A DNA stretch of 41,621 bases. It comes from Myxococcales bacterium. Its GTDB lineage: Bacteria; Myxococcota; Myxococcia; Myxococcales; JAKAPL01. Numbering within the stretch: position 1 is the first letter of the stretch; each line of letters starts with the position of its first letter. Where the stretch lies: NCBI GenBank assembly GCA_021807105.1, contig JAKAPL010000029.1, positions 1 to 41,621 on the forward strand, written 5' to 3'. The notes under the pieces were generated by a model. The model was not told the DNA's origin. It searched no databases and was given only the letters and a program-made list of their open reading frames with translations. Below are positions 964 to 6,480 of the stretch, one piece after another. The translations under genes and the position numbers were made by a program.

Positions 964-1164
964 TCAACGCACCGCGATCGAGCTGGCTCCGTTGGCGCCG
1001 GCCTTCAGGCGCGCCCGCAGCTCGCGATCGGACTCCTCCTCGTCGAGGAGCTTCAGGAAGATGAGGTAGGAGAGCTGCTCGATGTAGGTGACGGGGTTCG
1101 TCACGCCCCCGGCCCAGAGGATGTCGGTGAGGCGGTCGAGCTTGCGGCGGATCTCCTGGTTCAT
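964..1164 (-). pseudogene. hsdM: Truncated type I methylase subunit (hsdM 5' stub)
   Basis: The 66-residue product starts MNQEIRRKLDRLTDILWAGG and continues with VTNPVTYIEQLSYLIFLKLLD, the typical helical N-terminal domain of type I DNA methylase M subunits. Normal M subunits have about 500 residues. Here similarity stops near residue 55 and a stop codon follows, with no catalytic domain and no hsdS. The ATG at 1164 has a GGAG about 10 bases upstream and follows the TOPRIM-like gene by 16 bases, so it was the last gene of the hsdR operon. Methyltransferase activity is impossible from this fragment. The break lies next to the tandem-repeat region, which suggests a rearrangement or deletion there; an assembly join is the alternative. 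Confidence 0.85.
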
Positions 1165-1180
1165 GGCGGGCGGGCTCCGA

Positions 1181-1747
1181 TCAGACGGGCGCGGGCTGCT
1201 GTTGCCAGGCCTGGATCCTTTGCTGGAGGTCACGCAACTCGGGGCAGGTGTCGTGGAGGCTCCGCCACTTGCCAGAGAGGGCGCGCATGGCCGCCTTCCG
1301 GCCTCGACCGGGACCGTTGGAGCCGAGCTCTTTCAGCAGCGGATCCGCCCAGCGCTCCTTGGGGTCGCAGTCCTCGCGAACCTTGGTGAACGTCTCCTGG
1401 ACGCTGTCCTTGTAGAGCGCCAGCAACCAGACCTCGACCTCCTGGCAGGCGAGGCAGGCGAGCAGCTTGTCCGGGTGCTCGGCCTGGCGCTGCGCGGCCT
1501 TCTCTTCGTGGTTCTCGCGGTTGCAGTCCCGATCGACGATCAGGAGGAAGAGATCCGCCATGGGATTCTCCGCGACGATGGTCGCGACCGTGCCCTGGTC
1601 GAGCGCCTCCCCGGCGCCGCGGAGCCTCGGCTCCGGCAGTACAGTGACGTCCGGCGTCTGGCGGATGGCGGCGAAGAGCGCCTCCACGACCGGCTTCACG
1701 ATGTACCGGTCCAGCTCCTGATCCTCCGGGATGATCAGGACCTTCAA
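1181..1747 (-). CDS. TOPRIM-like (DUF4276/RloB-like) partner of the AAA ATPase
   Basis: The 188-residue product starts at TTG 1747, whose TTGA overlaps the stop of the ATPase gene. A TTG start in this overlap is preferred because the upstream part of the open frame is only the shadow of the ATPase gene. Residues 3-9 (VLIIPED) give a beta strand followed by an acidic residue (Glu8). Residues 67-74 (FLLIVDRD) give a second strand followed by Asp-x-Asp (72 and 74). This spacing resembles the metal-binding pattern of TOPRIM folds such as DUF4276, DUF4435 and RloB. CQEVEVWLLA (101-110) resembles the conserved Glu-rich helix of DUF4276. If correct, it would be the nuclease-like effector of a two-gene ATPase plus TOPRIM module. 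The family assignment is from pattern reading only; an unrelated fold is possible. Confidence 0.6.
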   Translation of the reverse strand: MKVLIIPEDQELDRYIVKPVVEALFAAIRQTPDVTVLPEPRLRGAGEALDQGTVATIVAENPMADLFLLIVDRDCNRENHEEKAAQRQAEHPDKLLACLACQEVEVWLLALYKDSVQETFTKVREDCDPKERWADPLLKELGSNGPGRGRKAAMRALSGKWRSLHDTCPELRDLQQRIQAWQQQPAPV

Positions 1748-2790
1748 AGCGCCCGCTCCAGCCAGCCCGTCGAGATCAGGTGCTCCATGTCCTTCGAGTC
1801 CCGCAGCGTCTCGAAGTGGGGCAGATCGCCGAGGCGCCGGCAGTGGGTGTCGCCGGTGTCGGCGTCTCGTCCGAATGCGACCACGTTGGCGAGGGCCTCG
1901 GGCGAGAGGTGCGCGAGGAGCGTGGCGGAGTGGGTCGTCGCGATGACCTGGATGTTGCGATCGCGCGTCACGTTTTCGAGCAACTCGGCGAGCAGCCGGA
2001 TACGGGACGGATGGAGGCCGATGTCTGGCTCCTCGACGACCAGCAACGTCCCGGCTGGCGCGGTCAGCAGCGCGACGAGATGTCCAAGGAAACGCAACGT
2101 GCCGTCGGAGACACTGCGGGCCGAGATCCTTCGTCCGCCCCGTTCGACGAGCATCATCATGAATTCCTTGAGCCCCGTGCCCACGAACTCGATGTCTTCG
2201 ATCTGCGGGCCGCACAGTTCGGACAGCCAGTCGACGATGTCGCCCCTGGTGTCGTTGGGTAGGCGGATCAACACCGGCGAGATGTTCTCGCCCGAGGTTC
2301 CGAGGACCGGCGACAAGGGCTGGTAGTCCCGCATCCTCGAAGGCTGGATGTCGAGGAAGACTATTCCCCGCAATGCGCGTCGAAGCTCACCCGCATGATC
2401 CGGCGGCGCGGTCTTCGTGATCTCATCTCGCTTAAAAGGCAGGCCGGAGTCATCGGTCGATACCGAGATCTGATAGGTTGCGGGACCGTCTGACAGCTTC
2501 CACGAAGACTTCACCGTGAAACGCACGGTCCCGACATGCGGCGCTTCGACAATTCCCCCCCGGATCGGCGGCCAGATCAGGCGCTGACCTTCCCAATGGC
2601 CATTGAGGACCTCTGCCTGGGGGAAGCCCAAGGCGTCGCCTTGCAGAAATCTCAGCGCGTCGAGAACGTTGCTCTTGCCGGAGGCGTTCGGGCCGACGAG
2701 GAGGGTCAACGGGGCGAAGGGAAGCGGCGGATTCGCCGGCCCCTCGGGCCCGAAGCTCTTCCAGTTCGTCAGGCTCAGTTGCGTCAGCAT
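1744..2790 (-). CDS. RecF/OLD-like AAA_21 family ATPase
   Basis: The 348-residue protein has the complete ABC/SMC-like ATPase signature. Walker A is GPNASGKS (33-40) after the typical start LTNWKSFG. A signature-like loop SVSDGTLR lies at 226-233, Walker B LLVVEEPD at 249-256, and the switch-type THS (His287) in ATTHSATLL. It has no long coiled coil and no fused nuclease domain, so the effector is probably the overlapping downstream gene. The ATG at 2790 follows GGGGAG. It lies 76 bases after hsdR and before the TOPRIM-like gene and hsdM stub, within one apparent operon. Family members with TOPRIM partners (OLD, RloA/B, PARIS) act in phage defence; that role is inferred here from context. Confidence 0.9.
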   Translation of the reverse strand: MLTQLSLTNWKSFGPEGPANPPLPFAPLTLLVGPNASGKSNVLDALRFLQGDALGFPQAEVLNGHWEGQRLIWPPIRGGIVEAPHVGTVRFTVKSSWKLSDGPATYQISVSTDDSGLPFKRDEITKTAPPDHAGELRRALRGIVFLDIQPSRMRDYQPLSPVLGTSGENISPVLIRLPNDTRGDIVDWLSELCGPQIEDIEFVGTGLKEFMMMLVERGGRRISARSVSDGTLRFLGHLVALLTAPAGTLLVVEEPDIGLHPSRIRLLAELLENVTRDRNIQVIATTHSATLLAHLSPEALANVVAFGRDADTGDTHCRRLGDLPHFETLRDSKDMEHLISTGWLERAL

Positions 2791-2866
2791 GGGCCGCTCC
2801 CCGGGGGGCCGAAGCTGTCAACAAGGGCCCTCGATGTCAACCGCGCCGAAGCACCCATCGCGGGCC

Positions 2867-5152
2867 TCACCCTCGCGCTCCCGTGCCGTTGCCGCGGGCC
2901 GGGGCAAGAATGCGCTCGTCGAGGTCCCCGACCGTGCGCTTCAGGCCGTCCTCGCCGAATAGCTTGACGCCGACTTCGCCGGCGTTCTGGATCGAGAGCG
3001 GCGGCTCGAAGAGGTCGTCGACCGTGAGCCTCCCGAGGACGGCGCCGCGGTTCTTGAGGAGCGAGAGGTACTGCGCCTGCTCGGGCGTCGGCGACCGAGC
3101 CACGAGCCAGGCCCGGAAGTTCTCCTCGATGCGCTCTTCGCGGCTCTTGACATGTCCGACCCCGAGGGCGGCGCGCACGAAGTCGATCAGGGTGCCGCCC
3201 GGGCTCCGGTAGGCCCGGCGGAGGTTCTCTTCGTTGAAGTAGTACTGCGGCTGGTTCAAGCGCTGGGCGAGGGCCTCTTCCTCGTCGGGAGAGAGCGGCT
3301 GGCGCTTTCGGACCTTCTCGAGGACGGCGTCTGCGCGCGCCTGCCGCCGGACCGTGCTCTCCCAGTGCGTCTGGTAGTCGCGCTTGTCGACGCGCTCGCC
3401 GTCGGGCCCGACCTCGACGTAGGCGACCGCGTCGAGCCACTCGTCCGCGAGGCCCAACTCGACCAGGTCGTGCCAGCCCGCCGACGCCCTGCGGGCGGCG
3501 CCGGGCGCGTGGCCGCCGCCGGTGCCGGTGAAGATGTCGGTGTCGCTGTCGTTAAAGTGCTGGTGGTTGCCGAAGAAGTCGTAGATGACGAAGCGCCGCT
3601 TGCCGATGTGCGGCGCCGTGCGGGTGCCGCGGCCCCGAATCTGCTGGTAGAGGATCGGGCTGCGGATCCGGCGCGCGAGGACGAGGTGCAGGACCTCGCG
3701 GCAGTCGAAGCCCGTGTCGAGCATCCCGACGCTCACGGCGACCTGGGGGTAGGTCTCGCGCTTGAATCGCCGGATGGCGGCCTTGGCGTCGGGCAGGTCG
3801 CTCGTGACGACCTCCGCGTAGCGTCCTTGCTGCTCGGGGTGGCGCTCGTTCAGGTAGTGGGCGAGGCGCGCCGCGTGGTGCTTGGTGATGGCGAAGACGA
3901 TCGCCTTGCCGGGCGCGGTCTTCTGGCCGGGGGCGAGGTCGAGGTACTGATCGCAAGCGCGCCGGTCGAACTCGTCGATCATCAGCCGGTTCGTCTTCTC
4001 GTTCGTCCAGGTCCGCTCGAACTCCGCCGGGTCGTAGTGCTCCTCCTGCACGTCCGCGCCCTTCGAGATGAGCTCGGTGATGCCCGTGGCGAAGCGGTAC
4101 GGCACCAGGTAGCCGGCGGCGAAGGCCTGCTGGATCGGGTAGGCGAAGTCGGGTTGGCCGTCCTTGCACCGGTAGAACTCGAAGGTGTTGCGCTCGATGT
4201 AGGCCGCCGGGGTCGCGGTCAGGCCGACGTGCAGTGCGTCGAAGTGGGTGAGCGCGACCTGCCAGGCGCCGTAGATGGACCGGTGGGACTCGTCGGCGAC
4301 GACCACGTCGAAGTAGCCGCTCGTGTACTCCTGGTACCGTCCGATCATCGTCTGGAGCAGGCAGACGGTGATCTGCCGCTCCTCGCGTTGCGCACCGGCC
4401 TTCAACCAGTAGCTCGGGTGCCCTGCCAGGACGTCCTGGAACACGCCGCGGGCCTGTTCGGCGAGCTGCTCTCGGTCCACGAGGAAGAGGATGCGCTCCG
4501 CGCGGCCGGACTGGATGAGCCGCTTCAGGTAGAGGGCGATGATGTCCGTCTTGCCGGTCCCGGTCGGCAGCTCGATGAGAAACCGGCGCTTGCCCAGCTC
4601 GATGGCCCGATCGAGGGCGCGCATCGCGTCCTTCTGGTAAGGTCGCACGTCCCGCGCCTCGCCGTCGCGGACGTACGTCTCGGGGATCGGAACCGTCGCG
4701 AGCGCCCTGCGGTCCTTTCGCAGGGCAACGAGCCGTTCGAGATCGCGTCGCGAGTAGAACGAGCCGACGAGGCGGGCGTCACCGTGCGCGTGATCCCAAA
4801 AGTAGATCAGCTCGCCGTTCGTGAGGAAGATGAACGGTGCCCCCAGCTCCTGCGCATAGGGCAAGGCCTGGGACTTGGCGACGTAGGGCTGGATGGCCTG
4901 TTTCTTGGCCTCGATGATCGCGAGCGGGCGGCCATCTTGCCCGTAGAGCACGTAATCCGCACGGCCCGCTGCGTTCGGGACAGGCGGGTCGTAGTCGTGC
5001 AACCCCTCGGCGGCTTGGGGGATCGGGCGGGAGGCGATCTGGACGTGGACTTCGGCGCGGACCTGCCGCTGATCGGCCGGATCCCAGCCGGCGGCGCGGA
5101 GCGCGCCATCGATGACGATCCTCGCCTCCGCTTCGGTTCCTCGTGGGCGCAT
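2867..5152 (-). CDS. hsdR: Type I restriction enzyme R subunit (EcoEI-like HsdR)
   Basis: The 761-residue protein has all parts expected of an R (motor/endonuclease) subunit. The PD-(D/E)xK nuclease shows Asp66 and Glu81-x-Lys83 (IIEAKK). Superfamily 2 helicase motifs follow: PTGTGKT (196-202), DESH (287-290), TATP (312-315) and QQIRGRGTR near residue 490. The EcoEI-type C-terminal domain that contacts the methylase follows. Length is close to the EcoEI subunit and no frame break is seen. The enzyme normally translocates DNA and cuts only in complex with M and S subunits. Only a stub of M and no S is present here, so the enzyme is probably inactive unless another locus supplies partners. It is the first gene of the minus-strand operon, with ATG at 5152. 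Confidence 0.94.
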   Translation of the reverse strand: MRPRGTEAEARIVIDGALRAAGWDPADQRQVRAEVHVQIASRPIPQAAEGLHDYDPPVPNAAGRADYVLYGQDGRPLAIIEAKKQAIQPYVAKSQALPYAQELGAPFIFLTNGELIYFWDHAHGDARLVGSFYSRRDLERLVALRKDRRALATVPIPETYVRDGEARDVRPYQKDAMRALDRAIELGKRRFLIELPTGTGKTDIIALYLKRLIQSGRAERILFLVDREQLAEQARGVFQDVLAGHPSYWLKAGAQREERQITVCLLQTMIGRYQEYTSGYFDVVVADESHRSIYGAWQVALTHFDALHVGLTATPAAYIERNTFEFYRCKDGQPDFAYPIQQAFAAGYLVPYRFATGITELISKGADVQEEHYDPAEFERTWTNEKTNRLMIDEFDRRACDQYLDLAPGQKTAPGKAIVFAITKHHAARLAHYLNERHPEQQGRYAEVVTSDLPDAKAAIRRFKRETYPQVAVSVGMLDTGFDCREVLHLVLARRIRSPILYQQIRGRGTRTAPHIGKRRFVIYDFFGNHQHFNDSDTDIFTGTGGGHAPGAARRASAGWHDLVELGLADEWLDAVAYVEVGPDGERVDKRDYQTHWESTVRRQARADAVLEKVRKRQPLSPDEEEALAQRLNQPQYYFNEENLRRAYRSPGGTLIDFVRAALGVGHVKSREERIEENFRAWLVARSPTPEQAQYLSLLKNRGAVLGRLTVDDLFEPPLSIQNAGEVGVKLFGEDGLKRTVGDLDERILAPARGNGTGARG

Positions 5153-5580: not shown

Positions 5581-6480
5581 ATGGAGCCAAGAGATCGCTG
5601 GGGGCGGTGGTCGAGACGGGACTTCCTCCGTGGTGTGGCCGCGGGGGCGGTCGGCGTAGCCCTCCCGGTCGCCTGCGGGCGCCCCTCCTCGGGGTCGCCT
5701 CCGGCGGCAGCGACCTCCGGCGGCGCGACCGGATTCTTCAGCTCGGAGGAGGCCGCCGCCCTCGGCCGCCTCGCGGACTTCGTCTTCCCGCCCGATTCGT
5801 CGGGACCCGGCGGCAGCGCGCTCGGCACGGTCGCCTACGTCGAGCAGCTCCTGACCGCGCTCGACGGGACGGCGCCGCAGCTCTGGCGGGACGGGCCGTA
5901 CTCGGGCCGGGCGCCGTGGCCGGACGTGCATGGCCAGGCGACGACCGACTTCCCGAGCGACGACTTCGACGACTTCCTCCCGCTCGACCGCGTGCACCTC
6001 GCCGGCTGGAAGGTCAGGCTCCTCGGCTCGAGCGCGGTGGGGGGCGCGCCGAACGACGCCGTTGCGGGCATCGGGCCGGTCGTGGGCCAGCGCGACCAGA
6101 TGAAGCAGCTCCTGGGCGCGGCGCTCGCGGCGGCCCCGAGCCTCGCCTCGATGGACGATTCGGCGCTCGTCCAGGTCTGGGGCGGCCTCTCCGCGGGGGA
6201 GCGTTCCCTCGTCACGGCCTTCACGATGCAGGCCGTTTTCGGCGCGCCGGAGTATGGGGGCAACGTGAAGCTGGGCGGCTGGGCGCAGAGCCACTTCCCG
6301 GGCGACCAGCTCCCGTTCGGTTACTGCCAGTATGATGCGGAGACGGGCACCCTCGTCGAACGCGCCGATCTCCCGCTCACCAAGGCCGATCCGACCCCCG
6401 ACCCCGATCCGATGGATTCGACGACCCTCGCGCTCCTCGACAGCCTCGCCGCCGGATCCGGCGGAAGGAAGTACTATTGA
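5581..6480 (+). CDS. Gluconate 2-dehydrogenase subunit 3 family protein, Tat-exported
   Basis: The 299-residue protein is the small subunit that accompanies membrane- or periplasm-bound GMC-type dehydrogenases. Residues 11-17 (SRRDFLR) are a twin-arginine export motif, followed by a hydrophobic stretch and a possible lipobox with Cys32 (LPVAC). The body has the helical layout of the family (FFSSEEAAALGRLADFVFP, then GDQLPFGYC near the end). In characterised FAD-dependent sugar dehydrogenases the small subunit carries the Tat signal and the catalytic subunit is exported with it. The next gene overlaps by 4 bases (TTGA) and encodes that catalytic subunit. Substrate cannot be read from sequence; gluconate is only the family name. 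No clear ribosome-binding site precedes the ATG. Confidence 0.88.
   Translation: MEPRDRWGRWSRRDFLRGVAAGAVGVALPVACGRPSSGSPPAAATSGGATGFFSSEEAAALGRLADFVFPPDSSGPGGSALGTVAYVEQLLTALDGTAPQLWRDGPYSGRAPWPDVHGQATTDFPSDDFDDFLPLDRVHLAGWKVRLLGSSAVGGAPNDAVAGIGPVVGQRDQMKQLLGAALAAAPSLASMDDSALVQVWGGLSAGERSLVTAFTMQAVFGAPEYGGNVKLGGWAQSHFPGDQLPFGYCQYDAETGTLVERADLPLTKADPTPDPDPMDSTTLALLDSLAAGSGGRKYY

Follow-up and report, generated by a model that had tools for sequence, protein, structure and literature searches.

An ABC-type ATPase gene and an overlapping gene for a small predicted TOPRIM nuclease, located in a contig of a Myxococcales bacterium (GenBank assembly GCA_021807105.1, contig JAKAPL010000029.1), probably constitute an autonomous, phage-triggered abortive-infection switch that is lodged in a broken type I restriction locus. 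The entire contig of 41,621 nucleotides (G000:C123) was analyzed and is referred to here as the window. The best reading of its comparison with related loci is that the pair is a module able to insert into restriction operons and to persist after their loss; effector exchange within one operon slot and survival of the pair after loss of the restriction genes are its most interesting features. Two-gene ATPase/TOPRIM systems are widespread, PARIS being an example. In the present case, a single ATPase lineage whose partner in a given operon slot is one or the other of two unrelated predicted nucleases represents a natural experiment, and the persistence of the pair where restriction genes are gone, together with the exchange of partners, separates sensor from effector. 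The pair is predicted to function on its own, and its TOPRIM protein to cleave RNA.

All four genes of the locus lie on the minus strand in one direction, in the order hsdR (2867..5152), ATPase gene (1744..2790), small-protein gene (1181..1747) and hsdM stub (964..1164), which open reading frame and Pfam analyses confirmed as described in an earlier sequence-only reading. The hsdR product, a type I restriction subunit R of 761 amino acids with an EcoEI-type C terminus, exceeded the Pfam cut-offs for ResIII, EcoEI_R_C and HSDR_N, and scored 271.9 bits with the NCBIfam model restrict_EcoAI, under the curated value of 550. The ATPase has 348 amino acids and the small protein, which starts with TTG, has 188; the stop codon of the former and the start codon of the latter overlap in TTGA (1744..1747, minus strand). 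This junction, with a gap of 0, was present in 24 of 25 loci of the close branch, the exception being L019, where the frame is broken. The hsdM stub encodes a truncated product of 66 amino acids that matched HsdM_N (39.5 bits against a Pfam cut-off of 24.5; E 1e-09). Its homology stops near residue 52, about 1,000 bases short of the contig end, and no intact HsdM was found in the window's genome, which is 94.9% complete and gave only three N6_Mtase matches, the best of them (E 1.5e-9) in a 1256-residue frame. Because the hsdM homology ends so early and the N6_Mtase matches in the genome are weak, the type I system of the window is broken or incomplete; this holds subject to a possible loss of about 5% of the genome from the assembly and to possible misassembly at the tandem arrays next to the stub. 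The window locus thus lacks the intact HsdM that a functional type I restriction-modification system has. Two HsdS queries found no HsdS in the window, which is weak evidence of absence since HsdS is highly variable.

Traces of the same operon were detected in L002, the nearest relative among the loci, which lies on a contig of G057, from another genus of the same family, and whose TOPRIM protein is 83% identical to that of the window. HsdR, HsdM and HsdS were sought with few local queries, which missed the window's own hsdM stub; by these queries, to which all later statements on hsd neighbors also refer, the surroundings of L002 contain no hsd genes, and consist of glycogen and GalT genes. 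The stretch shared with the window (1121..2871, minus strand) comprised two blastn blocks, 2871-2526 with 79.9% and 2361-1121 with 83.8% identity, and base-level alignment showed that the similarity spans the region from the final codon of hsdR through codon 15 of hsdM. The upstream hsd flank of L002 extended over 81 bases (86.4% identity, E 7.3e-23) and the downstream one over 54 bases (92.6%, E 7.6e-18); behind the TOPRIM stop, L002 encodes MNREIRRKLGRLTDI and the window MNQEIRRKLDRLTDI. Hsd flanks beyond chance level occurred in only 3 of the 48 loci searched, namely the window, L002 and L003, and a weak hsdM-like stretch behind the pair of L006 (39 residues with a gap, E 0.015) was taken as chance. 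The remnants therefore indicate that the L002 pair, which is intact, either lost its hsd neighbors or moved with bits of their flanks. Between the window and L002, dN/dS was 0.23 for the ATPase gene (dS 0.88) and 0.33 for the TOPRIM-like gene (dS 0.30), well below 1 for both despite the broken hsdM of the window; the difference in dS implies that the two genes diverged unevenly. The central part of the ATPase gene (window 2590-2391) is 53-59% identical to L002, as compared to 94-95% across the ATPase/TOPRIM junction, a drop that points to recombination or to rapid change of the presumed sensing segment.

The neighborhood of the pair was surveyed in 52 loci, comprising the window, 34 loci from genome contigs, and six, six and five from the phyla of the window, G208 and G200, respectively. 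The ATPase gene was directly upstream of the small-protein gene in 48 of them; the four loci without it that were kept in the set are three fragments (L033, L059, L131) and L024, where no ATPase match was obtained. Genes of the hsd type adjoined the pair in two of the 52 loci, the window and L003. None of the 38 loci that extend over more than 3 kb both upstream and downstream of the pair had such neighbors; the other 14, including the window and L003, have at most 3 kb on one side, so that hsd absence there is weaker evidence. In L003, the order is hsdM-hsdS-ATPase-TOPRIM-hsdR, with hsdR truncated at the edge of the contig, and neighboring genes share a few bases, as in one operon. HSDR_N was sought over 48 genomes and was present in 36; among the 29 genomes whose pair positions are known, it lay at most 20 kb from the pair in two (G000 and G195, the genome of L003, where the position was inferred from the L003 contig coordinates). 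The chance expectation from this survey was 0.16 pairs within 5 kb among 48 genomes, as compared to the two observed (P 0.011); without the window, which had been chosen for its hsd feature, one of 47 remained (P 0.14).

Restriction-type placement was also observed outside hsd loci. A Pfam run on some neighbors of 32 of the 51 non-window loci revealed that the pair of three distant members (L116, L117, L119) is flanked by a DUF1156 gene and a DUF499 gene, all in one direction and assigned by Pfam except for the DUF499 protein of L119, which shares 52% and 88% identity with its two counterparts. In L115, an N6_N4_Mtase gene is directly upstream of the pair. The window's genome carries two comparable loci with canonical DUF4276 proteins: L149 (G000:C62) has the order DUF1156, ATPase, DUF4276, DUF499, while L150 (G000:C124) has a DUF1156-like end, assigned by similarity only, followed by ATPase, DUF4276, a HEPN_Swt1 protein, a gap and DUF499. 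Many of the other scanned neighbors were housekeeping genes. The sequence-only reading had taken the position between hsdR and hsdM as a sign of a possible second line of defence that acts when the type I enzyme is inhibited. The survey gave a mixed outcome for this link: most relatives have no adjacent restriction gene, yet restriction-type embedding recurs, several relatives being in methyltransferase-based loci, and a fixed tie of the pair to type I restriction is not supported.

A different partner was observed among the closest relatives of the ATPase. In an IQ-TREE phylogeny of 84 ATPases, seven sequences (support 95) were sister to the window's branch of 25 (support 100; joint group 100), and their partners resemble PDC-M07B of PADLOC (model PDLC04394). 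These partners share four invariant acids in all seven sequences (Asp8, Glu51, Asp125, Asp150), read as a PIN site, and are predicted from sequence to be PIN-like. Homologues of the L141 partner were 1031 of 1055 candidates; among 120 listed, two bear the name PIN domain-containing and one is called VapC family. The partner had no match in Pfam, and a solved-structure profile search gave chance matches only. PIN domains are generally RNases. In two Photobacterium/Vibrio plasmids (L141, L142) and in L147 (G297; a wider view of L140, with genes called by similarity), the order is hsdM, hsdS, ATPase, PIN-like, hsdR, which is the same hsdS-hsdR slot as in L003, and the L141 genes likewise overlap by a few bases. 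The other four PIN loci (L143, L145, L146, L148) are not in hsd loci. The presence of sister ATPases with a PIN-like partner in the same slot implies an effector swap. Further TOPRIM-paired lineages branch outside the group formed by the window's branch and the PIN-paired ATPases (93, 88), and RloB-linked ATPases, on which the tree was rooted, are also outside the window's branch; the nesting of PIN-paired within TOPRIM-paired ATPases depends on this rooting, and the simplest reading of such a tree would be that TOPRIM was replaced by PIN once. In a FastTree run, the window's branch was a clade with 0.51 only, while its union with the PIN-paired ATPases reached 0.993. Homologues of the PIN-like partner are far more numerous than those of the TOPRIM partner, for which 263 of 454 scored candidates qualified at E<=1e-3, and the PIN-paired variant may be the commoner one.

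These placements bear on the view that the pair is dedicated to the type I enzyme, sensing when it is inhibited or dismantled and then killing or arresting the cell. The window, L003 and the L002 scar all place the TOPRIM pair in hsd loci, the PIN-like sister lineage occupies the same slot in three loci, and the operon-like overlaps of L003 and L141 agree with such a role. Nevertheless, it is quite unlikely, considering that 50 of the 52 TOPRIM pair loci have no adjacent hsd gene, that HSDR_N is lacking within 20 kb in 27 of the 29 genomes in which the position of the pair is known, and that dN/dS is below 1 even where hsd genes are lost or broken. Moreover, the pair cannot now guard the type I enzyme of the window, because hsdM is a stub there and no intact copy was found. 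An autonomous switch that can be inserted into restriction operons is thus preferred. Tentatively, and with less confidence, the proposal may be widened to one ATPase sensor lineage serving as a universal plug-in alarm for restriction operons, which would swap its RNA-cutting TOPRIM or PIN effector, keep its slot between the specificity or modification gene and the motor gene, arrest cells whose restriction has been disarmed, and later become free-standing after the restriction genes decay, as in the window and L002.

The window ATPase scored 129.3 bits with Pfam AAA_21 (cut-off 27) and 58.3 bits with AAA_15 (PARIS threshold 32), and the motifs GPNASGKS, SDGTLRF, VVEEPDIGLHP and TTHS were all present and aligned with those of relatives, bearing out the complete Walker motifs ascribed to it. 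The best PADLOC family was PDC-M07A (234 bits; five M07A models, best 5.9e-70, without curated cut-off), whereas the MAD3 model of MADS (NF047739) gave 79.9 bits, far from its curated cut-off of 420. The segment from Walker A to the signature was the part most variable in length, and the predicted fold is similar to DNA-bound Rad50/SMC heads.

Carriers of the pair were few in each group searched: 13 of 195 genomes in the window's phylum, 1 of 369 in the class of G199, 7 of 396 in the phylum of G208, and 7 of 392 in that of G200, including G221, which had been reached earlier; each count includes its center genome. One relative was found among plasmids and none in phage records, and of 27 stretches of viral contigs that matched a pattern none was confirmed. 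This patchy presence fits a horizontally moving cassette. It also weighs against the view that the pair has no defence function and is an ATPase-nuclease for housekeeping or stress which wanders from locus to locus. This view is very unlikely in the light of the repeated embedding in restriction-type operons and of the PADLOC candidate-defence models, which fit the ATPase far better than the general Pfam ones; the many housekeeping neighbors and an archaeal OLD-family ATPase with a cell-cycle role (PMC12796447) are what speaks for it.

The acidic pattern noticed in the small protein is not due to chance, as 80 of 81 distinct sequences retain Glu8, and all 81 retain Asp72, Asp74, Glu103 and Glu105. 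The profile of the family (from which L019, L020, L033, L034 and L059, with fewer than 150 matched residues, were omitted) aligned end to end with DUF4276 (PF14103) over residues 1-184, with the acids in register (hhalign 93.0%). Among 46 relatives (set A1, taken from the 120 homologues listed of 263; a second set, A2, had 31 sequences from the first 35 loci, with L006, L013, L024 and L033 omitted), 17 matched DUF4276 at E<=0.1, the best at 2e-4, and 32 matched one HEC-01B model at E<=0.1, the best over all HEC-01B models being 2.6e-5. The window protein itself had no DUF4276 match at E<=1, the gathering score being 30.2 bits, and matched HEC-01B, which we take to be DUF4276, at E 0.0024 at best with models that have no curated cut-off. 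DUF4435 was matched neither by the window protein at E<=1 nor by any of the 46 relatives at E<=0.1, and a DUF4435 profile could not be built, with proteins in 4 of 25 genomes and one over the cut-off. RloB (PF13707) scored 14.9 bits, under the gathering value of 31.5, and its profile, made from five sequences only, aligned with 4% in hhalign. Identity with DUF4435 or RloB by sequence was therefore dropped, consistent with the separate variety that had been suggested, and the protein is best described, from its sequence, as a remote relative of DUF4276.

The fold of the small protein was compared with known structures. The best solved-structure match was the TOPRIM domain of OLD, but unrelated lumazine synthases scored about as high, Foldseek gave no match at E<=0.001, and a solved-chain profile search with the family alignment returned chance matches only, to PI3K regulatory subunits; the best viral structure match was an RloB-like protein. 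The fold search alone was consequently rejected as proof, and the TOPRIM assignment is based on the profile alignment and the residue positions. The TOPRIM fold is a prediction, as is two-metal nuclease chemistry, and the earlier proposal of an ATPase/TOPRIM-like pair is supported in this form.

Comparison with known systems revealed that the window pair is a separate branch of ATPase/TOPRIM pairs, real and well conserved. The PADLOC candidate PDC-M07 (M07A ATPase plus M07B) is the closest for the ATPase, which matches M07A and is sister to the seven M07B-partnered ones; however, the TOPRIM-like partner matches no M07B model at E<=1, and PDLC04394 was not found in the window's genome. Pairs of ABC ATPase and DUF4276 (PADLOC HEC-01) have the same two-gene layout, and 23 of 25 canonical DUF4276 genes from 19 pair-carrying genomes (25 of 38 matches, 30 of which had loci) adjoin an ATPase of the same HMM, but the window's family is distinguished by its own CDPKE and GPGxGRK blocks. 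RloA and RloB, which can lie in type I loci, likewise combine an ATPase with a small TOPRIM-like protein, and all five RloB genes considered (of 8 matches) adjoin an ATPase of the same HMM with lower scores; the window protein differs from RloB in sequence and its ATPase belongs to another branch. PARIS is detected by its DUF4435 partner together with an ATPase that exceeds the AAA_21 or the AAA_15 threshold (27 and 32, respectively) and was present in 5.2% of the genomes surveyed in PMC9122126; the window ATPase passes both thresholds, but a DUF4435 partner (score >=27) is absent from the window pair. In OLD class 1 and Gabija GajA, ATPase and TOPRIM are on one polypeptide (PMC10568477), in contrast to the two overlapping genes here. 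According to PMC12839542, DUF499 and DUF1156 are BREX-related components, TOPRIM-linked OLD-ABCs have a proposed backup role, and PIN-paired OLD-ABCs are mentioned; L116, L117 and L119 share this setting, while the loci of the window's branch are either of type I or free of adjacent restriction genes, and the main text of that paper uses neither the term DUF4276 nor hsdR. Literature searches on PDC-M07, DUF4276 (alone or with ATPase and defence), MADS mad3/mad4 and PADLOC HEC-01 retrieved nothing.

In the proposed mechanism, recognition of a phage product by the ATPase would set the predicted TOPRIM nuclease free. This logic is expected by analogy with PARIS, where an anti-restriction protein is sensed by the ATPase and AriB, a TOPRIM nuclease that cleaves tRNA, is released (PMC9122126, PMC12409363). 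The ATPase would be the recognition component, since the greatest variation in length is in its part between Walker A and the signature. The effector would cut RNA rather than DNA, an expectation drawn from the PIN-like effector of the sister lineage and from AriB being a tRNase, and cleavage would arrest the infected cell. Within an operon the pair may answer phages that disarm restriction, and alone it would act as a free-standing system; a guard role, of which the pair is seemingly independent, is possible where it sits in an operon and resembles the backup role proposed in PMC12839542. An OLD/Gabija-like nuclease that degrades phage or host DNA once the ATPase is triggered is unlikely. Such a target would agree with the ATPase fold and with the OLD TOPRIM domain as best solved match, this being a DNA nuclease in PMC10568477. 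On the other side, the nearest lineage of ATPases is partnered with a PIN-like protein, and PIN folds belong mostly to RNases. AriB, a two-gene TOPRIM effector, also speaks against a DNA target, since it cuts tRNA (PMC12409363); the same source states that the role of most defence TOPRIMs is unknown.

Several minor observations were made near the pair and its relatives. A Hen1-type RNA-repair gene is downstream of the pair in L016 (5477-6859), suggestive if the effector cuts RNA, and a Clp-type AAA+ gene is directly upstream in L128 and L129, both from one phylum. In two distant relatives (L006, L022), the pair directly follows the methionyl-tRNA synthetase gene (metG) on the same strand, a link that was dropped as compatible with chance. 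In L115 (11239-18281), a fragment like the upstream N6_N4 methylase recurs further upstream, past a RhuM-family gene, and in L150 the DUF499 protein bears an N-terminal HEPN_Swt1 domain, which also occurs on the separate protein of 345 residues. In the window, an ARAGORN tRNA-His call at 5600-5688 is probably spurious, lying inside a 299-residue open frame with a Tat-like signal start, read by eye. Tandem Repeats Finder located arrays next to the hsdM stub, at the end of the contig (1..715), with 84-/42-base units at 1-193 and 21-base units from 181; arrays of 21-base units with different consensus are near both contig ends (1-715, 41323-41615) and are probably the reason why the assembly stops there.

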